Source: Candidatus Freyrarchaeum guaymasense (lineage in GTDB: Archaea > Asgardarchaeota > Jordarchaeia > Jordarchaeales > Freyrarchaeaceae). Taken from it: a stretch of DNA of 34,956 nucleotides. Below the pieces are notes generated by a model. That model had not been told where the DNA came from, ran no database searches, and was given only the letters and a program-made list of their open reading frames with translations. Shown here in pieces: positions 5,701 to 34,693 of this stretch. Every line of letters begins with the position of its first letter. Within the stretch, counting starts at the first letter, position 1. The translations under genes and the position numbers were made by a program. The stretch spans positions 1-34,956 of the forward strand of contig JAUQZD010000004.1 of assembly GCA_030587405.1 (NCBI GenBank). The letters are read 5' to 3'.

Positions 5701-7020
5701 CTAGCTGTTTAGGGTGGCCTCTGCCAGTTTGAGGGTGCGCCTTGCTAGGTGTGAGATCCTGCTGTTGTTGAAGTTCGTGATGGAGCTTTCAACAGTGTCT
5801 TTAAGGGGTTTAATCCATTTCTTTGGCAGGTTCTTTGCGCCTAAAATGACTCCGAGTATAGAGCCTGTTGTTGCACCGTTGCAGTCGGTGTCCAGTCCTC
5901 CCATAACGCTGATCGTCACGCTCTTCTCGTATTCACCCTCCCCGTAGAGGAGTCCTAGAAGGACGAGGGCTGCATTGTTTATTGTGTGTACTGGACTGTA
6001 GTGGCCATACTTATCCATTATTCTCTCCCACGTGCTTCTCCAATCGTCACGTTTCTTACTCCAGTTGACGGTGTCCCTTACCGCCTCCGCAAGCCTTGAC
6101 CGTTTGGGGATCTCGGATAGGCCGATTTCAACTATTTCTTCGATGTCGCTTGTCGTGAAAGCTGCGCTTAGCATAGCGCTGACGAACATTTCACCGTACA
6201 CGCCGTTCTTAACGTGGGAGAGGCTGCCATCCCTATATGCAAGCTCGGCTCCGAGCTCTGGCTTTCCAGGCGTCACGTAGCCCCACATGTCCGCCCTAAT
6301 CTGCGCACCTATCCATTCCCTGTAAGGGTTCATGAAAGTGGCTGTCTCCGGGGGTGTGAGGCCGTTTACAAGGTTCCTGTATGCTGCACGTTCCGCCGTG
6401 TAAACCATGAGGTATGGGATCATGGTCAGCCAGACGGTGCCGACGTCCACCGTGGTGAAGTTGAAGCCTACTGTTTCAAGTAGGTGAAGGTTTAGGATCG
6501 TGTAATCTATGTCGTCGTCGCGCGGCATCCCCCTTATGTGTCCAAGCAGGACTCTACGGTTTAGGAGCCGGTGCCTAAGCCAGTCGGGGAAGTCGGCGGG
6601 TTCTGGTAATGGCGGGAAGTAATTTCTGAGGGGATAGGCGTCCGCCCTCCTCAACCACTCCTCGATCTGCTCTTTAGTCAGAAGTTCAGCTGGTTTGCCT
6701 AGAAGGCACCCTGCACACCTTCCAAGCCACCCTCCAAGAATCCTGTCTAAGAGCTCCCTCCTCGACAGGTCAAGGTCTATGACCCTTGGCCCCTCAGGCC
6801 TCTCAGTCCTTATGCCGTTCAGGTCTACGGGTTCCTTGTAAGGGAAGCTTGGCCTCAACCGGCACCTTCCCAGCTCCTTCAGAAGCTCCTCAAGCTCTGA
6901 GCGGCTTCCCCTCCCTGCCCCCTTGAACTCCTCCTCAACCCTCGTAACGTCGTATCCCTCTTCTCTCATCTGGGTTATCTCGTCAGCCACCAGCTGTTTA
7001 AGCTCTTCCAACCCCACCAT
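5701..7020 (-). CDS. ADP-ribosylglycohydrolase-family protein
   Basis: Member of the DraG/crystallin-J1 family, magnesium-dependent hydrolases that remove ADP-ribose or related glycosides. Visible signatures are GGWLGRCAGCLLGKP near residue 94, the metal-binding acidic cluster RDDDIDYT near 165 and the family hallmark GGLDTDCNGATTGSILG near 371-387. Length 439 is larger than classic DraG (about 290) because of a helical N-terminal extension of about 90 residues beginning LEELKQLVADEI; this matches the long variants seen in archaea and bacteria whose substrates are mostly unknown. The start ATG at 7018-7020 is preceded by a TATA element at 7044-7054. It stands alone between two plus-strand genes, so context gives no substrate. 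Confidence 0.85.
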   Translation of the reverse strand: MVGLEELKQLVADEITQMREEGYDVTRVEEEFKGAGRGSRSELEELLKELGRCRLRPSFPYKEPVDLNGIRTERPEGPRVIDLDLSRRELLDRILGGWLGRCAGCLLGKPAELLTKEQIEEWLRRADAYPLRNYFPPLPEPADFPDWLRHRLLNRRVLLGHIRGMPRDDDIDYTILNLHLLETVGFNFTTVDVGTVWLTMIPYLMVYTAERAAYRNLVNGLTPPETATFMNPYREWIGAQIRADMWGYVTPGKPELGAELAYRDGSLSHVKNGVYGEMFVSAMLSAAFTTSDIEEIVEIGLSEIPKRSRLAEAVRDTVNWSKKRDDWRSTWERIMDKYGHYSPVHTINNAALVLLGLLYGEGEYEKSVTISVMGGLDTDCNGATTGSILGVILGAKNLPKKWIKPLKDTVESSITNFNNSRISHLARRTLKLAEATLNS

Positions 7021-7374
7021 AACCCATTCACCTTAACATCCACCTATAATATAGTAACATCACTCTGAGAGCAGAGCTAATTAAAAAATTCTGCTGCCGC
7101 AGGAGCCGGAAAATTTAGGGTGTTCAAGGATGTGTTCCAAGCGGCAACCAACCTTCAGACGGCTTAAGTCATTGCTTCAGGTAGCATCGATAAGAGGGCG
7201 TAGCCATGGCTTACGGTGGCGGAGGAACCTTCTGGAGGAGGGTGGAGGAGGCTTCATAGGGATGCTCGCAAAAGGCTACTGGAAAGGAGGGGTGAGGTCA
7301 ACGTTTTCAGCGTCGGCGGGAACCCTTAAATTTACCGGAGAAAGACGTTTCTAAAGGGGTTAGAGGGAATTGAA
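7021..7374. other. 354-bp intergenic gap with divergent promoters
   Basis: Contains the minus-strand TATA element at 7044-7054 for the ADP-ribosylglycohydrolase and a plus-strand element CTTAAATTTA at 7325-7334 for the hydrolase. A 74-codon frame (7130-7354) is Gly/Arg-rich, has no homology I recognise and was not called. Nothing else seen. Confidence 0.45.
7044..7054 (-). promoter_or_regulatory. Box A for the ADP-ribosylglycohydrolase gene
   Basis: Minus-strand CTATATTATAG, 24-34 bp upstream of the ATG at 7020, which predicts a nearly leaderless transcript. Confidence 0.55.
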
Positions 7375-18541: not shown

Positions 18542-18947
18542 CTATCATCCATCCTTTACCGGTTTAGTCCAGATACCATCAACCACTTCCAACTTCGACT
18601 AGTATTAAATATTTCTTTGGCAAAAATTAAAGAGAGAAGGGGGTGTTTAGGGAGATAAGGGTGTTTAAGTAGTTGCATGAACGTCAATAGGATATAACTG
18701 GAAATCAGGGATACATGAGGGCTTTCATTTTTATAGTTGCCCTTTAACCGCATAGATTAATTGGAATTGAGGTCTCTGTAAGGGCAGTTGATGGAGGAGT
18801 AAAGCAATTCATGAGGTAAAGGCGGATGTGATTGCAGTAGAAGGAGGATTAGAGGATGGAAGACCGCTTACAGCAACTGGAATACACCTTACTTATATAA
18901 GGAGGTCTTTCATTAAACTATTGAAGACCCGGTTTAGGTGTTTTAAG
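18542..18947. other. 406-bp gap before the HEPN gene pair
   Basis: Low-complexity A/T-rich stretches with a short direct repeat, GGGTGTTTA (near 18640 and 18660). A minus-strand A/T element sits at 18601-18612. The strong plus-strand box TTATATAA lies at 18893-18900. The open phase from 18828 to 18947 precedes this promoter and is probably not translated. No RNA gene recognised. Confidence 0.4.
18893..18900 (+). promoter_or_regulatory. Box A (TTATATAA) for the nucleotidyltransferase/HEPN pair
   Basis: The best TATA match in the window, preceded by CACCTTAC. It predicts transcription from about 18920, which places the protein start at or after TTG 18921. Confidence 0.6.
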
Positions 18948-19556
18948 TTGGCGTGGAGGCAGCATCTACTTTTCAGGTTTAATGACGACTGGTGTCGTGC
19001 CATCCATTCCTTCGCATATAAGCTTAGTGTTGTTCTTGGCGATGTGCTTGTGAGCGTGGCTGCTAGCCCGAGGGAGGACTTGCTTTTCCACGACGGCAAC
19101 GTGCTGGTCGTCGTCAAGGAGGACTCGCTCGACGTACGCTGGAAGGTGATTGAAGTTGAACGGGAAGTCGAGAAGGAGTTCAACTGGAAAATAGGAATAA
19201 GCCCAATAATAGTGAAAGACGACGAAAAAGGGTGGGAGACCGTGCGCCGTTTCCTTCTCGCCTACGATGAACCAGCTTCTTCAGAAGAGTGGAAAAGGGC
19301 TGTTGACAAGTTTGTTGATCGTCTTAGTGTTGTTCTTGGCGATGTGCTTGTGAGCGTGGCTGCTAGCCCGAGGGAGGACTTGCTTTTCCACGACGGCAAC
19401 GTGCTGGTCGTCGTCAAGGAGGACTCGCTCGACGTACGCTGGAAGGTGATTGAAGTTGAACGGGAAGTCGAGAAGGAGTTCAACTGGAAAATAGGAATAA
19501 GCCCAATAATAGTGAAAGACGACGAAAAAGAGTTCTTCTTGGAGGCGTTTCGTTGA
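18948..19556 (+). CDS. Nucleotidyltransferase-like (MNT-type) protein with internally duplicated domain
   Basis: The protein contains two tandem copies of a small nucleotidyltransferase-like domain. Each core reads LSVVLGDVLVSVAASPRED, then LLFHDGNVLVVVKED, then a helix rich in E and V, then GISPIIVKDDEK. The classic GS-x-A-R-G-D and D-x-D residues of active MNTs are mostly lost (VAASPRED, HDGN), so it is probably not catalytic. The two copies are identical over 208 bp (19023-19230 and 19323-19530). Upstream of them the flanks still align as protein (DDWCRAIHSFAYKL and EEWKRAVDKFVDRL) but not as DNA. The stop overlaps the HEPN start. The start TTG 18948 (AGGTG 7 nt upstream) is uncertain; TTG 18921 and GTG 18828 are alternatives. 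By context it is the likely antitoxin. Confidence 0.65.
   Translation: MAWRQHLLFRFNDDWCRAIHSFAYKLSVVLGDVLVSVAASPREDLLFHDGNVLVVVKEDSLDVRWKVIEVEREVEKEFNWKIGISPIIVKDDEKGWETVRRFLLAYDEPASSEEWKRAVDKFVDRLSVVLGDVLVSVAASPREDLLFHDGNVLVVVKEDSLDVRWKVIEVEREVEKEFNWKIGISPIIVKDDEKEFFLEAFR
19023..19230 (+). repeat. Perfect 208-bp direct repeat, copy 1
   Basis: Identical base for base to 19323-19530, offset exactly 300 bp, so the reading frame is kept. The two copies are separated by 92 bp of unrelated sequence. Copy boundaries: it begins CTTAGTGTTG and ends GACGACGAAAAAG. Confidence 0.95.
19323..19530 (+). repeat. Perfect 208-bp direct repeat, copy 2
   Basis: Second copy of the repeat at 19023-19230. After it the sequence goes directly into the C-terminal codons (EFFLEAFR) and the HEPN gene. 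Confidence 0.95.
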
Positions 19557-19888
19557 AGGCTGAGGAACTTTTCAAAGAAGCCGTTGATGACGTTAAAATT
19601 GGATGCTACAACAAGGCTGTATCCGCCCTTTACTTCTCCCTCAGAATGATGGCTGAGGATTTCCTTCTAAGGATCCGGGCGCCCATCCCTAGGAGAGACG
19701 ACAAGCTAGCTAATGTACTGGATAGCCTAGGGGTCAAAAACGTGGCGCTTGCTCTCAGGAAGCTTTATGAGCTGAGGGTGAAGGCAGATTATAGAATGGA
19801 AAGCATTAGCAAGATGGAGGCCGACGTAGCTGTAAGGGTGTACGGAGAGGCACGAGAAGCCCTAAAAGAGAAGCTTAAAGGGGAGTAG
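19553..19888 (+). CDS. HEPN-domain protein
   Basis: A 111-residue all-helical HEPN protein (KAEELFKEAVDDVKIGCYNKAV, then SALYFSLRMMAEDFL). HEPN proteins paired with MNT-type proteins are often RNase or modifying toxins, the MNT partner neutralising them. The usual R-x4-H RNase motif is not evident; at the matching place the sequence is LRVKADYRM, so an R is present but the H is replaced by Y, which may mean a non-nuclease scaffold role. The start is TTG, overlapping the upstream TGA, with GGAGG 7 nt before it. Coupled translation with the upstream gene is likely. Confidence 0.75.
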   Translation: MKAEELFKEAVDDVKIGCYNKAVSALYFSLRMMAEDFLLRIRAPIPRRDDKLANVLDSLGVKNVALALRKLYELRVKADYRMESISKMEADVAVRVYGEAREALKEKLKGE

Positions 19889-20504: not shown

Positions 20505-21038
20505 CTATGTGTGGTACGGGTTGGTTGGAGGCTGCTCTCCTACATACGTTGAGGCGGCTTTCGGCGTTTTACCCTTCTTCACGGTATGATAGTATGCGTA
20601 GGTCATTGGTTCACCTTCTTTGATCATGCCTGCGTCGACGACCTTTCCGATGAACATGGTGTGTGTCTTGATGTCGCACTCTTTGACCACTTCTGCTTCC
20701 ACATACGCTATGGTGTTCTCGAGAATTATAGGGGCTCCCGTTACTCCAACCCTAAAGTTTACTCCTTCAAACTTATTGAAGGTCCTACCAGTCTTGAACC
20801 CGAACCTGCCGATGAACTGTAAAGGTGTATCCTCCGATAGGATCGAAACCGCGAAAACCCTACTTTTCTCTATGAACTCGTGAGTTAAGTTTAGCTTGTT
20901 GATGCATACTGCAACCATTAATGGCTCCGCGGTAACCTGGATGAACGTGTTAGCGATTTGGCCGTTAACCCTGCCATTCATCTTGGACGTGACAACGTAC
21001 ATTCCATAACTGATCTTAAATAAAGCGTTCACATCCAC
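20505..21038 (-). CDS. Flavin reductase (FMN-binding split barrel)
   Basis: A 177-residue flavin reductase-domain protein related to the flavin-reductase half of high-molecular-weight rubredoxins (Hrb). The FMN-binding N-terminal block ISYGMYVVTSKMNGRVNGQI and NTFIQVTAEPLMVAVCI is typical, followed by VFAVSIL and the FGF segment. The rubredoxin domain of Hrb is absent; the tail KKGKTPKAASTYVGE is the region where fusion occurs in Hrb. It would reduce flavin or shuttle electrons with NAD(P)H. GTG start with GGGGAGGA 6 nt upstream and a TATA element TCCTTTTAACTGG (21060-21072, minus). Neighbouring dfx suggests a role in oxygen detoxification. Confidence 0.85.
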   Translation of the reverse strand: MDVNALFKISYGMYVVTSKMNGRVNGQIANTFIQVTAEPLMVAVCINKLNLTHEFIEKSRVFAVSILSEDTPLQFIGRFGFKTGRTFNKFEGVNFRVGVTGAPIILENTIAYVEAEVVKECDIKTHTMFIGKVVDAGMIKEGEPMTYAYYHTVKKGKTPKAASTYVGEQPPTNPYHT

Positions 21039-21300: not shown

Positions 21301-21347
21301 TGATAGGTTGTAATTTTCCCTTGTATGTTTCGTTGGAGGGCTATGGG

Positions 21348-23027
21348 ATGGTTGATGAAGGAGACCTAGCTGAGATACGGGCAGCTAGGGAGAAATGGGA
21401 GAAGGAGACGTTGAATAAGTGGGTTGCAAGGCTTCCCGAGAGGAAGAAGTCTTTTAAGGTTTCATCGGGGTTCGATGTGAAGCACGTGTACACTCCGGAG
21501 GACACGGCGAAGCTAAACTACCTGAAGGACTTGGGGTTCCCAGGGGAGTACCCGTTCACCAGGGGGATCCACGCCACGATGTACAGGGGGAGGCTTTGGA
21601 CGATGAGGCAGTTTTCTGGTTTTGGGACGGCGGAGGACACGAACAAGCGTTTCAAGTATCTTCTAAGCGAGGGTGAGACGGGGCTGAGCATAGCCTTCGA
21701 CTACCCGACCATAATGGGCTTGGACTCTGATCATCCGATGTCGGCGGGAGAGGTTGGGAAGTGTGGTGTCGCCGTTTCAACGCTGAGGGACATGGAGATC
21801 CTGTTTGAGGGGATCCCCCTAGATAAGGTTACGACTTCCATGACTATAAACATGCCCGCGTCAGTCCTCTTAGCAATGTACATAGCGGTCGGCGAGAAGC
21901 AAGGTGTGCCAATGGAGGCTCTCGGAGGGACAACACAAAACGACAACTTGAAGGAGTTTATAGCTCAGAAGCTCTGCATCTTCCCTCCTGAGCCTGCGTT
22001 GAAGCTTTCAGTGGATTTGATCGAGTTCTGCGCCAAGCACATGCCAAAGTGGAACCCCATAAGCATTAGCGGGTACCACATAAGGGAGGCTGGGGCTACC
22101 GCCCTCCAAGAGCTGGCGTTCACCATAGCTGACGGGATAACGTACGTTGAATCCACGTTGGAGAGGGGGTTAGATGTCGACGAGTTCGCCCCCCGCCTTT
22201 CATTCTTCTTCGCCTCGCACAACGACTTCTTTGAGGAGATCGCAAAGTTTAGGGCTGCGAGGAAGGTTTGGGCGATGCTCATGAAGGAGCGATTCAACGC
22301 TAAGAAGGAGCGATCCATGTGGCTTAGGATGCACGTTCAGACCTCAGGGTGTACCCTAACAGCCCAGCAACCCCTGAACAACATTATAAGGGTTACAATT
22401 CAAGCTCTGGCCGCGGTGCTCGGCGGAACCCAGTCCCTGCATACGAACTCGTACGATGAAGCTCTAGCGCTTCCAACCGAGGAGGCCGTAAGGATATCTC
22501 TTAGAACCCAGCAGATAATAGCTTATGAGAGCGGGGTGTGCAACACGGTAGACCCCCTCGGGGGGTCGTACTACGTTGAGTGGTTAACTGATAAGATGGT
22601 TGAGGAAACCCTAAAGTACCTTGACAGGATAGAGAGCATGGGGGGAGTCATAGAGTGCATAAAGAGAGGGTACTTCCAGAAGGAGATAGCTGAGAGCGCG
22701 AGGAAGTACCAGCAGGAGGTGGAGAAGGAGGAAAGGGTCATAGTCGGGGTCAACAAGTACGCCTTAGACGAAAAGATTAAGGTGCCCATACTGAAGATAG
22801 GGGAGGACGTTGAGAGGAAGCAGGTTGAAAGGCTAAGGAGGGTTAAGGCGGAGAGGGACAACGTGAAGGTGGAGGAAAGGCTCTCGGACCTGAGGAGGGC
22901 TGCGGAGAAAGGTGAAAACCTCGTGCCATATATCTTGGAGTCGGTTAAAGTGTACGCTAGCATAGGAGAGATAATAGGCACCCTAAAGGAGGTTTACGGG
23001 GAGCACCAAGAAGTCATAGTCTTTTAG
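21348..23027 (+). CDS. Methylmalonyl-CoA mutase, large (catalytic) subunit
   Basis: Catalytic TIM-barrel subunit of adenosylcobalamin-dependent methylmalonyl-CoA mutase, which interconverts (R)-methylmalonyl-CoA and succinyl-CoA. The family core is present: PFTRGIHATMYRGRLWTMRQ, ETGLSIAFDYPTIMGLDSDH, GGTTQNDNLKEF, and SGYHIREAG with the active-site His at residue 244. Length is 559 residues, the size of the archaeal large subunit that lacks the B12 domain. I moved the start from the first possible codon (21186) to ATG 21348, because GGAGGG at 21335-21340 precedes it and the region before contains the promoter. The small subunit follows after 26 nt. A related mutase such as isobutyryl- or ethylmalonyl-CoA mutase is possible, but the sequence reads like the classic MCM. 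Confidence 0.93.
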   Translation: MVDEGDLAEIRAAREKWEKETLNKWVARLPERKKSFKVSSGFDVKHVYTPEDTAKLNYLKDLGFPGEYPFTRGIHATMYRGRLWTMRQFSGFGTAEDTNKRFKYLLSEGETGLSIAFDYPTIMGLDSDHPMSAGEVGKCGVAVSTLRDMEILFEGIPLDKVTTSMTINMPASVLLAMYIAVGEKQGVPMEALGGTTQNDNLKEFIAQKLCIFPPEPALKLSVDLIEFCAKHMPKWNPISISGYHIREAGATALQELAFTIADGITYVESTLERGLDVDEFAPRLSFFFASHNDFFEEIAKFRAARKVWAMLMKERFNAKKERSMWLRMHVQTSGCTLTAQQPLNNIIRVTIQALAAVLGGTQSLHTNSYDEALALPTEEAVRISLRTQQIIAYESGVCNTVDPLGGSYYVEWLTDKMVEETLKYLDRIESMGGVIECIKRGYFQKEIAESARKYQQEVEKEERVIVGVNKYALDEKIKVPILKIGEDVERKQVERLRRVKAERDNVKVEERLSDLRRAAEKGENLVPYILESVKVYASIGEIIGTLKEVYGEHQEVIVF

Positions 23028-23053
23028 TATAGTTCCTACAGCGGGTGGTTAAG

Positions 23054-23458
23054 ATGAGCAAGAGGAGGATTAGGGTGCTCGTCGCCAAGCCGGGGCTTGA
23101 CTCCCATGACAGGGGGGCGAAGGTTATAGCAGGAGCGCTTAGAGACGCCGGGTTCGAGGTGATATATACTGGGCTTAGGCAGACACCCGAGCAGATAGTT
23201 GAAACAGTCATTCAGGAAGACGTGGACGTTCTCTGCCTCAGCATCCTATCAGGAGCCCACATGACCCTGCTTCCCAAGGTTATGGAGCTCATGAAGAGGA
23301 ATGGGTTAGACGACGTTCTAGTCCTGGCGGGAGGGATAATTCCGGACGACGACGTGCCCCGCCTTAAGGAGGTAGGGATCGCAGAAGTGTTTGGTCCCGG
23401 GACGATGACTGAGGAGGTAATAGAGTTCATAAAGAGGAACCTTAAGAGAAGCCTGTAA
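23054..23458 (+). CDS. Methylmalonyl-CoA mutase, small (B12-binding) subunit
   Basis: A 134-residue cobalamin-binding domain, the separate C-terminal subunit of the mutase. The B12 lower-ligand motif is complete: [11 protein letters not shown]-x-H-x2-G at residues 16-21, followed by LSILSGAHM (S-x-L) and [10 protein letters not shown] (GG), the base-off/His-on signature. ATG 23054 with GGGTGG a few nucleotides upstream is preferred to GTG 23045. It lies 26 nt after the large subunit and 17 nt before the fused MeaB gene. Confidence 0.93.
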
Positions 23459-23463
23459 GCTGG

Positions 23464-23479
23464 AAGGAGGCGTCCATTA
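23464..23479 (+). promoter_or_regulatory. Strong Shine-Dalgarno before a non-ATG start (ATT)
   Basis: AAGGAGG at 23464-23470 is the best SD in the operon. In the phase of the MeaB-CobA protein the only codons in reach are ATT at 23476 (5 nt away) and ATT at 23479 (8 nt away). No ATG, GTG or TTG occurs in that phase between the upstream stop (23443-23445) and the P-loop. Confidence 0.65.
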
Positions 23480-24978
23480 TTGTAGATGATGTAGAGAGAG
23501 GTAGGCTGGTTGAGGAGGCTTTAAAGGGTAGCAAGAGGGCTATAGCCAGGCTGATAAGCATAGTCGAGGACAACCCTGCAGAGGCGCACGTTATAACTAG
23601 GCTTATCGCCCCCCACACTGGTAGGGCTCACATAATAGGTGTCACGGGGCCGCCGGGATCTGGGAAGAGTACTTTGATAGCGGCTATGGCTAAGGAGCTG
23701 AGGCGGAGAGGTAAAACGGTTGGAATCATTGCCGTGGACCCCAGCAGTCCGTTCTCGGGCGGCGCCCTCCTAGGGGACAGAGTTAGAATGCAGGGGTTAA
23801 CGCTCGACGAAGGAGTTTTCATAAGAAGCATGTCAACTAGGGGTGACAGGGGAGGGCTTGCGAGGGCTACCAGCAACGCGGCGAAGATACTTGACGCTTC
23901 AGGCAAGGACTATGTAATCATCGAAACTGTTGGAGCTGGGCAGTCCGAGGTTGACATCGTGGGGATAGCGCAGACGGTCATACTAGTCCTCCCCCCCGTC
24001 TTGGGGGATGAAATCCAGGCCTTGAAGGCAGGGGTAATGGAGATAGCGGACATCTTCGTGGTGAACAAGGCCGATGTTGGAGACGCCGATAAAACAGTCA
24101 ATGACATAGAGGAAATCTTAGACTTAGGCGCCCCGAGGAAGTGGAGGCCTCCCGTGGTTAAAACGGTGGCTTTAAGAGGGGGAGGCGTGGACGAGCTCCT
24201 CCAGAAGATAGAGGAGCACAGGGAGTTCCTAGCTTCTGAGGGGTACCCTCTGGAGGTCATGAAGCCGAGGAGGGATGAGCTCTTGGACGCCCTCAGGGAC
24301 CTCCTAGAGGAGAAGATTTTATCCCTCATGGACGAGGTGGAGTTCAGGGAGGTCGAGGAGGGGGTGGCGAAGGGGGAGCTGGATCCTGCCACCGCGGCGG
24401 AGATGATATTCGCCAAGGTCGTGAAGCCCGAGTACGTTTCACCAGGGCCACGCCACAGGTTAGAGAGGGGGCTGATCCAAGTTTACACTGGTGATGGGAA
24501 GGGGAAGACTACAGCTGCGTTCGGCCTCGCCCTCAGGGCGGTAGGGAGAGGGTTGAAGGTATGCGTGGTCCAGTTCATTAAGGGAGGGTTTGACTATGGG
24601 GAGCTCTACTCCTCGAAGCACCTTCCAAACCTCCACCTTGAAGCTTACGGGCTCGGCCGCTTCATACTTGGAAGCCCTTCAGAGGAGGACTACGAGCAGG
24701 CTAGGAAGGCTCTCGAGAAGGCGAGGGACGCCGTAATGAGCGGGGAGTATGACATTGTGATACTGGACGAGGTGAACCTAGCGCTTCACTTGAAGCTCAT
24801 CAGCCTGAGCGACGTCCTGGACATTTTAAGAGGTAAGCCGGAGAACGTTGAAGTTGTCCTGACAGGGAGGAAAGCTCCAAAGGAGTTGCTCGAAGCAGCG
24901 AACCTGGTCACGGAGATGAGGGAGGTGAAGCACCCGTACAGGGAGGGTGTGCAGGCGAGGAGAGGCATAGAGTACTAG
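23476..24978 (+). CDS. MeaB-type GTPase fused to cob(I)alamin adenosyltransferase (CobA/BtuR type)
   Basis: One 500-residue chain with two domains. Residues about 1-320 are a MeaB/MMAA G3E GTPase, chaperone of methylmalonyl-CoA mutase: Walker A GPPGSGKST at 58-66, the ETVGAGQSEVD block at 150, and NKAD at 197. From about 330 the chain is a CobA/BtuR-type ATP:cob(I)alamin adenosyltransferase: P-loop TGDGKGKTTAAFG at 338, VVQFIKGG, and ILDEVNLAL. It would make adenosylcobalamin and load it on the mutase. The usual ATG choice (23674) cuts off Walker A, so translation must begin at 23476/23479 or another non-standard codon. No stop interrupts the phase from 23446. Human MMAB is a different (PduO) fold, so this fusion is not the metazoan pair. 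Confidence 0.9.
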   Translation: MIVDDVERGRLVEEALKGSKRAIARLISIVEDNPAEAHVITRLIAPHTGRAHIIGVTGPPGSGKSTLIAAMAKELRRRGKTVGIIAVDPSSPFSGGALLGDRVRMQGLTLDEGVFIRSMSTRGDRGGLARATSNAAKILDASGKDYVIIETVGAGQSEVDIVGIAQTVILVLPPVLGDEIQALKAGVMEIADIFVVNKADVGDADKTVNDIEEILDLGAPRKWRPPVVKTVALRGGGVDELLQKIEEHREFLASEGYPLEVMKPRRDELLDALRDLLEEKILSLMDEVEFREVEEGVAKGELDPATAAEMIFAKVVKPEYVSPGPRHRLERGLIQVYTGDGKGKTTAAFGLALRAVGRGLKVCVVQFIKGGFDYGELYSSKHLPNLHLEAYGLGRFILGSPSEEDYEQARKALEKARDAVMSGEYDIVILDEVNLALHLKLISLSDVLDILRGKPENVEVVLTGRKAPKELLEAANLVTEMREVKHPYREGVQARRGIEY

Positions 24979-25548: not shown

Positions 25549-25554
25549 ATGAAT

Positions 25555-25565
25555 AGTTTTAAGTG
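25555..25565 (+). promoter_or_regulatory. Box A of the second MBL-fold gene
   Basis: AGTTTTAAGTG lies 50-60 bp ahead of the GTG at 25615. It lies after ATG 25549, which argues against that earlier start. Confidence 0.45.
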
Positions 25566-25614
25566 CTGTTTGACTGTTGGAAGTAGCTTAGCTGTTCATG
25601 GAGGTTTGGAGAAG

Positions 25615-26499
25615 GTGAGGGAGGTAACAGATAACATATACTTGGTTAAGGGGAAAGGCGGAGGAAGGTTTCCTTATTCTTTCTCAATCCTCATACTCGA
25701 CGAGGTTAAGGTTTTGATCGACACCGGGTGTGGCGTGGACGTCCTAAGGAAACTTAGGAAGAAGTACGACGTTGACCTAGTCATTAACTCGCATACCCAC
25801 CCAGACCACTCAGCTGGAAACTGGCTTTTTAAGGGTAAGCCGATCTACGTTCCAGAGGAAGGATTTCCTACGAGCGGAGACTTAAAGGCGTTGTCTGAAA
25901 GGTTTACCGAGCCAGGGTGGCTGGCAGAGTACTGGATAGGATTCGTGACGAAAGTGATGGGGATTAAGAACTGTAGGCCGACGGAGAGCTACAATGAGAA
26001 AACGGTGTTCAAGTTTGGGGACACAGTACTTTTACCCATTCACACTCCCGGACACACGCGCGATCATTACTGCTTCTACGAGCCCAATGAGAGGATACTC
26101 TTCTCATTTGACTATGATCTCACCTCCTTCGGCCCATGGTACGGTCACAGGGAGTCTAGCATAGAGGAGACGAGGAGGTCCATAGAGCGAATTAAGTCTT
26201 TAAGGCCAAGGATCGTTGTTTCAGGCCATAGGGGGGTGGTTGTGGGGGACTTGGAGGCAGAGTTCGACGCTTTCCAAATGAAGATTGATGAAAGAAGTGA
26301 GAGGATCCTCAGGCTTCTTGGAAGAGGTCGAAGCATCGAGCAACTCGTTGACGCTGCCCCCATCTACGGGGGTTTCCCCTACGCTGAGCCGCTTTTAAGG
26401 TACTGGGAAAAGGTCATGATTGAAAAGCATTTAGAAGAGCTTGAGAGAAAAGGCAAGGTTAAAAGGGAGGGAGAGGTATATTTCCGAGTTGAAACGTAA
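25615..26499 (+). CDS. MBL-fold metallo-hydrolase, second paralogue
   Basis: About 294 residues. The metal motif is NSHTHPDHSAGNW, with further ligands in HTPGHTRDHYC and in FSFDYDLTSFGPWYG, and a late His in VSGHRGVV. The C-terminal 75 residues, from RILRLLGRGRSIEQLVD, form a basic winged-helix-like region. It is clearly a paralogue of the protein at 12686-13594: NERILF, DLTSFGPWYG, the segment order and the C-terminal helices match. GTG 25615 was chosen because GGAGGT lies 9 nt upstream and the first residues then match the paralogue in length; ATG 25549 is an alternative. It precedes the thiolase-like gene by 29 nt, so it may belong to acyl-CoA metabolism. Substrate unknown. Confidence 0.85.
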   Translation: MREVTDNIYLVKGKGGGRFPYSFSILILDEVKVLIDTGCGVDVLRKLRKKYDVDLVINSHTHPDHSAGNWLFKGKPIYVPEEGFPTSGDLKALSERFTEPGWLAEYWIGFVTKVMGIKNCRPTESYNEKTVFKFGDTVLLPIHTPGHTRDHYCFYEPNERILFSFDYDLTSFGPWYGHRESSIEETRRSIERIKSLRPRIVVSGHRGVVVGDLEAEFDAFQMKIDERSERILRLLGRGRSIEQLVDAAPIYGGFPYAEPLLRYWEKVMIEKHLEELERKGKVKREGEVYFRVET

Positions 26500-33313: not shown

Positions 33314-34693
33314 TTATCCTTCATGTCCAGGGTGAAGCCTCTCTAAAGGCTTCAAGCCTTTCCTAACGTAAGCGTTCACAAGATCTCCTACCTTAGCGTT
33401 GCTTTCGGCGCCGTACACGTATATTCCCATGTTTTTCAGGGTGTAGTATGCCGGCTTGCCCATACCGGTGGCTACTATGGCGTCTATGCCGTGACGGTAA
33501 AGGAACTCAGCTGCCTCCGGCCCCTTACCATGCTCAACGCTTAAGGAAGGATTGTCAACAGACCACCATTCAGCCACCTTTCCGCCCTTAACCTTCACCA
33601 TGAGGAACTTCCTACACTTTCCAAAGTGGTCGCTAAGGGTGCTTTCAAGCCCTCTATCCTCGTCTATAGGGAAAGCTACGACCTTTTCCTCTTTTTCCCT
33701 TGCAGGAACCGCTTCGATGAGGATGTACCCGATTCTTGGAATGCTGCTTCTAACAATGTTTTTCAACTCCTCGGAGACGTAATGGCTTTCCTCCAAGCTT
33801 AACTCCGGTTTCAACTCGACGGTTAAGTCGACCAAGATGTACCTTCCAGCCCCTCTAGCTCTCACCTGAGCAAGCCTGCTCACCTTAGGGTGAGCCTCAA
33901 CGAGCCTTCTAACATCCTCTACGATCTCAGGGTACTGGACGGCTTCCATCAAAACGTCTATTGAGCTCTTGACGACACCGTACCCTGTAGCTAGCACTAT
34001 GAAGGAGATTGCTATGCCGACCACAGGGTCAACGAGGGCGTACGAGTGATAGGCGTGTTCAACCCATAGCTTGAGGAGCCACCACTGGGGGGCAGTCAAC
34101 CCGAGCACGCTGGAGAAGTACTCTAAAATGAGCTCAAGAGGTTTTAGGGAGAGGAAATATGACGCGTAGAGGATCGAGGCTTGACCTGCTATGGGGGCGA
34201 GGGCTGTGTAAACATCGGTTGAGAAGTGCTTTGACTCTGCTAGGAGAGAGGGACTACCAGTTCTCTCCCCGACGCGTTTTTGATATAAGGCGACAAGCCA
34301 GTAGGATGACGCGGCGAAGAGAATGGTTGCAACTGAAACTATGTTTACATCGGGCCTCTCGAAAACCCAAAACTTCTGAATGGATTCCCATATTGCTTCT
34401 ATGCCTACAGCGAGGATCAGGAGGCCTACGAAGAGGCTTGCCACGTTTTCAGCCTTGTAGTGCCCGTAGGGATGCGTGAAGTCAGGAGGCTTCTCGGAAA
34501 CTATTAGTCCTGCCAGAACCGTTACGATAGACAAAACATCGGAAAAAGTATTATATGACTCGGCCACCAACCCTATGGAGCCTGTAACCCTTCCAGCTAC
34601 GAACTCCGCGACGGCAACTACTAAGAGGGTGAGGAAGGAGACGAGTGCCACACGCTTATAATCTTTTAGAAGGACAGGTTTACTATGCTTCAT
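33314..34693 (-). CDS. Cation diffusion facilitator fused to a NifX-like domain
   Basis: A 459-residue fusion. Residues about 1-330 are a CDF metal/proton antiporter: helix-rich, with GSIGLVAESYNTFSDV, HPYGHYKAENV and LAESKHFSTDV, the Asp/His metal-site segments, and a cytosolic ferredoxin-like domain (VRRLVEAHPKVSRLAQV). From about 340 a Nif-cofactor domain follows: VAFPIDEDRGLESTLSDHFG, and AIVATGMGKPAYYTLKNMG. It would move Zn, Fe, Mn or similar ions while the C-terminal domain binds a metal or cluster. ATG start. The next minus-strand gene encodes a free NifX-like protein. Confidence 0.92.
   Translation of the reverse strand: MKHSKPVLLKDYKRVALVSFLTLLVVAVAEFVAGRVTGSIGLVAESYNTFSDVLSIVTVLAGLIVSEKPPDFTHPYGHYKAENVASLFVGLLILAVGIEAIWESIQKFWVFERPDVNIVSVATILFAASSYWLVALYQKRVGERTGSPSLLAESKHFSTDVYTALAPIAGQASILYASYFLSLKPLELILEYFSSVLGLTAPQWWLLKLWVEHAYHSYALVDPVVGIAISFIVLATGYGVVKSSIDVLMEAVQYPEIVEDVRRLVEAHPKVSRLAQVRARGAGRYILVDLTVELKPELSLEESHYVSEELKNIVRSSIPRIGYILIEAVPAREKEEKVVAFPIDEDRGLESTLSDHFGKCRKFLMVKVKGGKVAEWWSVDNPSLSVEHGKGPEAAEFLYRHGIDAIVATGMGKPAYYTLKNMGIYVYGAESNAKVGDLVNAYVRKGLKPLERLHPGHEG

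Follow-up and report, generated by a model that had tools for sequence, protein, structure and literature searches.

A MeaB GTPase joined to a CobA-type adenosyltransferase beside methylmalonyl-CoA mutase genes in several archaeal lineages

We ask whether one archaeal gene encodes, on a single chain, both a chaperone and an adenosyltransferase for methylmalonyl-CoA mutase, and what such a chain would do. In the available text of PMC10481361, PMC9974510 and PMC10356863, a GTP-bound chaperone wedges the mutase open, an adenosyltransferase inserts or withdraws the cofactor, and hydrolysis leads to closure; in the source text available, defects in the human proteins MMAA and MMAB are stated to cause methylmalonic aciduria. 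The stretch of DNA analysed here (the window; 34,956 nucleotides of the Candidatus Freyrarchaeum guaymasense contig JAUQZD010000004.1) carries a gene in which two of these three players, the chaperone and the adenosyltransferase, stand on one chain. The fusion is real, and it is present in several archaeal lineages.

The fused gene and its two halves

The gene is a single stop-free frame of 500 residues (Table 1), and both halves score above curated cut-offs: 298.6 bits against PF03308 (cut-off 23.1) and 343.9 against TIGR00750 (cut-off 240.75) for the MeaB half, 218.9 against PF02572 (cut-off 25.7) and 202.3 against TIGR00708 (cut-off 167.75) for the CobA half. The original prediction of one open chain with a complete MeaB and a complete CobA domain is confirmed by these results, and the junction (24420-24470), where a stop codon would have split that chain, carries none on direct reading of the window sequence. 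Its placement of the fusion inside a mutase operon also holds, with the genes for the large and B12-binding subunits directly 5′ on the same strand.

Table 1. Features of the mutase locus, in window positions
Feature	Position	Strand	Basis
Flavin reductase-like gene, 5′ of mutase genes	20505..21038	-	PF01613
Methylmalonyl-CoA mutase large (substrate-binding) subunit (mutL)	21342..23027	+	PF01642 759.6 bits, TIGR00641 823.5 bits
Methylmalonyl-CoA mutase B12-binding subunit (mutS)	23045..23458	+	PF02310 97.7 bits, TIGR00640 187.6 bits
GGAGG, ribosome-binding-like, before probable ATT start	23466..23470	+	Direct reading
MeaB-CobA fusion gene, 500 residues	23476..24978	+	ORF, Pfam, NCBIfam, alignment of fused proteins
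MeaB GTPase part, about residues 1-314	23476..24417	+	PF03308 residues 24-283, TIGR00750 residues 18-311
Short linker, about residues 315-327	24418..24456	+	Alignment; length varies among relatives
CobA/BtuR corrinoid adenosyltransferase part, residues 328-500	24457..24978	+	PF02572 residues 330-500, TIGR00708
Metallo-beta-lactamase-fold hydrolase, next 3′ of fusion	25549..26499	+	PF00753

The first ATG, GTG or TTG of the frame appears only at 23674, within the MeaB domain and just 3′ of its P-loop (residues 58-66, 23647-23673). The start codon is probably an ATT at 23476 or 23479, behind the GGAGG. A start at TTG 23674 would give 434 residues and remove the MeaB P-loop; the database entry of the window protein (P0002) has exactly this length, as if begun there, and lacks the P-loop.

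All MeaB motifs sought are present in the first half: P-loop, switch I aspartates, switch II (ETVGAGQ, residues 150-156), the switch III D/Q/K and the NKxD motif of base specificity (NKAD, residues 197-200). Switch III residues D182, Q185 and K188 of Methylobacterium MeaB, reported in the available part of PMC9974510 to gate loading, correspond by residue mapping to D178, Q181 and K184 of the window protein, which are invariant in all 27 rows of the fused-protein alignment; the switch I residues D92 and D105, taken from the same partial source, fall on D88 and D101 as counted by eye on the alignment. The window protein belongs to the same GTPase family as MeaB and human MMAA, keeps the nucleotide and switch motifs and, like them, lies beside mutase genes, but it carries CobA on the same chain, whereas MeaB and MMAA are described in the source text available as standalone homodimers. 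Membership of the IcmF family is not indicated, the profile NF045497 giving 117.8 bits, from the G domain alone, against the more than 1500 bits required.

The second half is of the CobA/BtuR/CobO family, from whose other members it differs by its fusion behind MeaB in a mutase operon. It has the P-loop GDGKGKT (residues 339-345) together with R354, D431, E432, R465 and H486; by residue mapping it keeps GxGKGKT and the counterparts of Salmonella CobA R51, D127, E128, R161 and H182, which we take to be ATP-site residues. Each of the chosen residues is conserved in at least 54 of the 55 linked or fused rows, a count that includes near-duplicates. The corrinoid-side loop is different, reading G-x-G-x-F-I in the window protein and G-F-T-W in Salmonella CobA, where F91 and W93 presumably shape the cobalt site: F396 of the window protein falls opposite T92 in one alignment and opposite F91 in another, and the position of W93 is non-aromatic. 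The assignment to the CobA type rather than the PduO type, also part of the original prediction, agrees with the family scores, PF01923 (PduO/MMAB) being absent from the 22 families that match the fusion protein at E 1e-3.

Several further features were noted in the window. An exact 211-base direct repeat (19023-19233 and 19323-19533, 300 bases apart) lies inside the open reading frame 18828-19556 and looks like a recent internal duplication or an assembly slip. Neither this frame nor the small frame that follows it (19553-19888) has a Pfam match over cut-off; the two resemble what we take to be a nucleotidyltransferase/HEPN-type pair. Rfam and tRNA scans of the window gave no match, and positions 33314-34693 encode a cation efflux protein whose C-terminal part is a dinitrogenase-cofactor domain (PF02579).

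Fused and separate forms of the gene pair

At least 25 further proteins with both domains (P0003-P0027; 485-507 residues) and one shorter fused piece (P0028) are among the matches listed in a protein search in which 8000 candidates were scored and the best 120 considered, so that fused counts are lower bounds. The further fused proteins are 45-74% identical to the window protein. Where a source gives a name to one of these proteins, the name covers a single half: MeaB, 'LAO/AO transport system kinase' or, in the case of the partial P0028, cob(I)alamin adenosyltransferase. The other function of the protein is thereby hidden from annotation. P0004 to P0006 are nearly one protein, P0004 and P0005 being labelled as from Candidatus Jordarchaeales, and the Jordarchaeales genome G077 encodes P0005 exactly (489 of 489 12-mers). 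One G077 contig (C60, locus L196) ends with a flavin reductase gene, mutL, mutS and the start of MeaB (63, 84, 88 and 76% identical to the window); on a separate contig (L141), MeaB-CobA precedes a hydrolase gene that shares 66% identity with its counterpart 3′ of the fusion in the window. The flavin reductase-like gene thus lies 5′ of the mutase genes in G077 too, there on the mutase strand and in the window on the opposite one. Taken together, these matches point to Jordarchaeales kinship for the window. G077 has two mutase large subunits (L195 on C48 and L196 on C60). One of its large subunits, 63% identical to that of the window, adjoins a thiolase-like gene, and the piece fetched around it has no match for a B12-binding subunit, MeaB or CobA.

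The two genes also occur side by side as separate genes. Locus L001, from Candidatus Bathyarchaeota, reads mutL-mutS-meaB-cobA, and there meaB and cobA are separate genes in different frames. In the class to which L001 belongs, 86 of 256 genomes match at E 1e-60: meaB and cobA are adjacent in 54, MeaB occurs without a listed adjacent CobA in 29, and CobA alone in 3, so that cobA lies directly behind meaB in 54 of the 83 genomes with a MeaB match. Two of these 54 linked genomes have the fusion (G386 and G464), 15 have one frame with stops between the genes and 37 give two separate matches; fusion is therefore not needed, since 52 of the 54 manage with two genes. Thirty of the linked loci were viewed in sequence. 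Two are fused, and in 13 the genes are in different frames; in the remaining 15 they share a frame and are separated by a short spacer and one to three stop codons. The fused protein P0015 (L142) has a methionine where split relatives appear to start cobA.

This proximity of in-frame neighbours bears on whether the window frame was joined in assembly alone, by a sequencing error that erased a stop codon or frame shift separating two genes: in half of the viewed loci little more than stops and a short spacer would have to be lost. We nevertheless regard such an artefact as improbable in the extreme, and reject it, in view of the independent fused records (at least 25 of full or near-full length), the exact encoding of P0005 in G077 and the linker residues conserved among the window protein and its nearest fused relatives. 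The window protein also groups with its five nearest relatives, all fused, with support of 100. The search of other proteomes thus bore out the two-domain architecture and qualified the accompanying statement that the halves are separate elsewhere. Tandem separate genes are indeed common, but the fusion does not stand alone; it represents the joined state of a pair adjacent in 54 genomes of one archaeal class and in a few Asgard genomes.

The order mutL-mutS-meaB-cobA is found in 22 of the 25 archaeal loci scored as split (L001, L146-L169); among these 25, mutL is cut by the contig end in L155 and present only as a piece in L165, L148 has no mutase on its contig, and L149 has it on the other strand. 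Within the phylum of G002 (227 genomes), which we take to be Asgard because its loci bear the titles Hermod, Hodarchaeota and Heimdallarchaeota, the pair is fused in G077, separate in G009, G010, G079 and G086, interrupted by a contig end in G076 and reduced to a relic in G078. Other arrangements are cobA-meaB-mutL-mutS as separate genes in Bacillota (L003, L005, L006), meaB-cobA one gene away from the mutase genes in Carboxydothermus islandicus, and cobA-mutL-mutS-meaB in another archaeon (L061). At E 1e-95, a cut-off at which an empty answer is no proof of absence, no fusion was matched in the class of Carboxydothermus (0 of 3 genomes) or in the phylum of L061 (0 of 389, a sample of a larger group), and the viral contigs searched held no relative of the fusion.

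A tree of 49 joined rows needs six changes between the fused and split states, at least four of them forced by well-supported branches; the MeaB-only tree needs five and the CobA-only tree eight. A single fused clade is rejected (difference of 298 log units, p-AU 1.3e-45) in a test that used a quick tree search and a group chosen after the tree had been seen. Because a single fused clade is rejected, joining, splitting or both have recurred, as judged from these sequence comparisons. One early fusion followed by re-splitting may also be compatible with the clade test, and gains and losses count alike in the numbers of changes. We prefer repeated joining of in-frame neighbours: the fusion probably derived from tandem meaB-cobA by loss of the intervening stop, more than once.

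Adenosyltransferases in linked genomes

We compared the adenosyltransferase families of genomes with and without the linked pair. PF02572 is matched in all 32 fused, linked, cut or relic genomes examined and PF01923 in none, while PF01923 is matched in 20 of 40 genomes chosen as unlinked (15 of 17 from the L001 class and 5 of 23 Asgard), gene absence in these genomes possibly being absence from the bin. Across the whole L001 class, PF01923 is matched in 21 of 256 genomes, comprising none of the 54 linked genomes, 19 of the 29 unlinked genomes with MeaB and two others; the Fisher value for this contrast, 8e-12, ignores kinship, and the contrast follows clades and hence is not independent. In the Asgard phylum the association between PduO absence and linkage is weak, with a match in none of the 7 linked, cut or relic genomes against 27 of the 137 other matched genomes (26 over cut-off); most MeaB genomes of this phylum have no PduO match, linked or not. 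Unlinked genomes were viewed with their neighbours, among which a weaker CobA may lie, for 2 of the 29 in the L001 class (G240 and G244; L173, L174), and in three others of these 29, G387, G437 and G438, a contig end may hide cobA; in the Asgard phylum 24 were viewed with about 1.5 kb on each side and 7 with more (L170-L172, L175-L178).

In 15 of the 32 genomes no CobA except the linked one exceeds the cut-off; the other 17 have a second CobA. The second copy of G346 (G346:C7:183786-184291) is interrupted by stops and is likely a pseudogene. Leaving it out, the 16 second copies (L179-L194) form a group of their own with support of 98, in a tree rooted on the second copies and flagged for the meeting of long branches. 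All 16 have lost the first P-loop lysine (A, G or E instead), which all 55 linked or fused rows keep, near-duplicates counted. At the corrinoid-side loop, W stands in 13 of the 16 (W-H in 12 of these 13) and F in 46 of the 55 linked or fused rows; three Jordarchaeales second copies carry F there, like the linked and fused rows. Judged by these residues, it is the linked copy that resembles the canonical enzyme and the second that appears altered, and the function of the second CobA-family protein may differ. A division of labour in which the linked CobA serves strictly the mutase and a second CobA does the housekeeping was considered and rejected, since 15 of the 32 genomes have no second CobA over cut-off; in these 15 the single CobA is not mutase-only, if other adenosylcobalamin enzymes are present there.

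The relic in G078, a bin of about 2.1 million bases, bears on the same question. Its 244-residue frame (L144, about 6448-7164) joins what is left of the MeaB C terminus, beginning near query residue 262, to a complete CobA, with no mutase and no GTPase domain between the flavin reductase gene and CobA. In the tree its CobA groups inside the fused group of Jordarchaeales, which points to descent of the relic from a fused ancestor. The mutase family was matched in five of seven genomes searched, the exceptions being G078 and G386. The G386 bin has 0.9 million bases, and its fusion is intact but lies at a contig end, so that the mutase may have escaped the data, or the organism may lack one. G078 suggests that CobA can outlive the mutase, and because it keeps the CobA part with neither a mutase match nor a GTPase domain, CobA may serve other enzymes. 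Strict dedication of the fused CobA to the mutase is doubtful.

Proposed role in delivery and repair of the cofactor

We consider it fairly likely that the fusion acts with both halves in the maturation and repair of the mutase encoded just upstream. In its GTP state, the MeaB half would bind the B12-binding subunit and keep the mutase open; the CobA half would form adenosylcobalamin from ATP and reduced corrinoid, pass it to the open mutase and retrieve damaged cofactor; GTP hydrolysis would then allow the mutase to close. We infer both activities, mutase binding and the direct hand-over for the fusion. Most likely it unites on one chain the delivery and repair functions of MMAA and MMAB, with CobA standing in for MMAB. 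The role proposed is one that MMAB/PduO-type enzymes have in the available text of PMC10356863, namely making adenosylcobalamin and loading the mutase together with MMAA or MeaB. These enzymes are of a different family, PF01923 being matched neither in the window protein nor in any of the 54 linked genomes of the L001 class, so that the pairing differs in kind from the metazoan one, as the original prediction had it. Its suggestion of a loader for the upstream mutase remains the best reading, without the strict dedication to the mutase that G078 makes doubtful.

An alternative is that fusion just fixes one-to-one expression, the CobA half releasing adenosylcobalamin for all users with no special hand-over. 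The relic of G078 fits this account, as do the 15 of 32 genomes with no other CobA over cut-off and the lack of a PduO match in all 32; tandem genes, being the common state, could moreover fuse with little effect. Against it, cobA is found together with meaB and the mutase genes in several orders, including those of the three Bacillota loci and of L061; this and the several changes between fused and split states suggest a benefit of closeness to the mutase. We judge general supply unlikely, though it deserves weight. Far less likely is that MeaB acts for some other B12 enzyme and that the CobA half has its place in corrinoid salvage or synthesis. In the available text of PMC2770081, about 40% of meaB homologs are given as not co-transcribed with the mutase, but the mutase genes stand directly 5′ on the same strand in the window and likewise in 22 of the 25 split archaeal loci, and the mutase-responsive switch III residues are kept.

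Beyond the maturation and repair factor we prefer, we put forward a fuller and more tentative proposal, in which we have somewhat less than even confidence. The fusion would be a one-chain load-and-repair machine in which a CobA-type enzyme, a kind familiar from corrinoid biosynthesis, takes MMAB's delivery role and, being attached to the G-protein, places direct transfer of coenzyme B12 into the mutase under the control of GTP hydrolysis; it would have been joined more than once in archaea from a conserved pair, marking a physical contact between adenosyltransferase and G-protein that may also occur, transiently, where the two are separate. Such a fusion suggests that CobA-type enzymes, besides PduO/MMAB, can deliver to the mutase, and by tying two partners together it could trap the transfer complex for structure work.

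No MeaB-adenosyltransferase fusion, let alone one described as common, was found in the available text of the literature searched, which included PMC9164220, PMC10481361, PMC9974510, PMC10356863, PMC11575231, PMC2770081 and PMC8085122 and left subscription papers largely outside its scope. In the available part of PMC10481361, IcmF, which unites isobutyryl-CoA mutase and a G-protein, is the notable exception to standalone chaperones, and how the adenosyltransferase interacts with it is described there as not known. IcmF resembles the window protein in that a MeaB-type G domain is naturally fused to a partner in B12 delivery; in IcmF this partner is the client mutase, whereas in the window protein it is the enzyme that makes the cofactor, and the mutase is encoded apart.

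An AlphaFold2 model of the fusion (mean pLDDT 78.2, pTM 0.53) matches 8dpb, MeaB bound to its mutase domain, at rank 1 and 1g64, Salmonella CobA with cobalamin and ATP, at rank 29. As a prediction, the model confirms both folds, and its pTM is too low to tell the relative orientation of the two domains. Salmonella CobA is a dimer. MeaB is also a dimer in the available text of PMC10356863, and because both are dimeric a two-plus-two assembly of the fused chain is possible.
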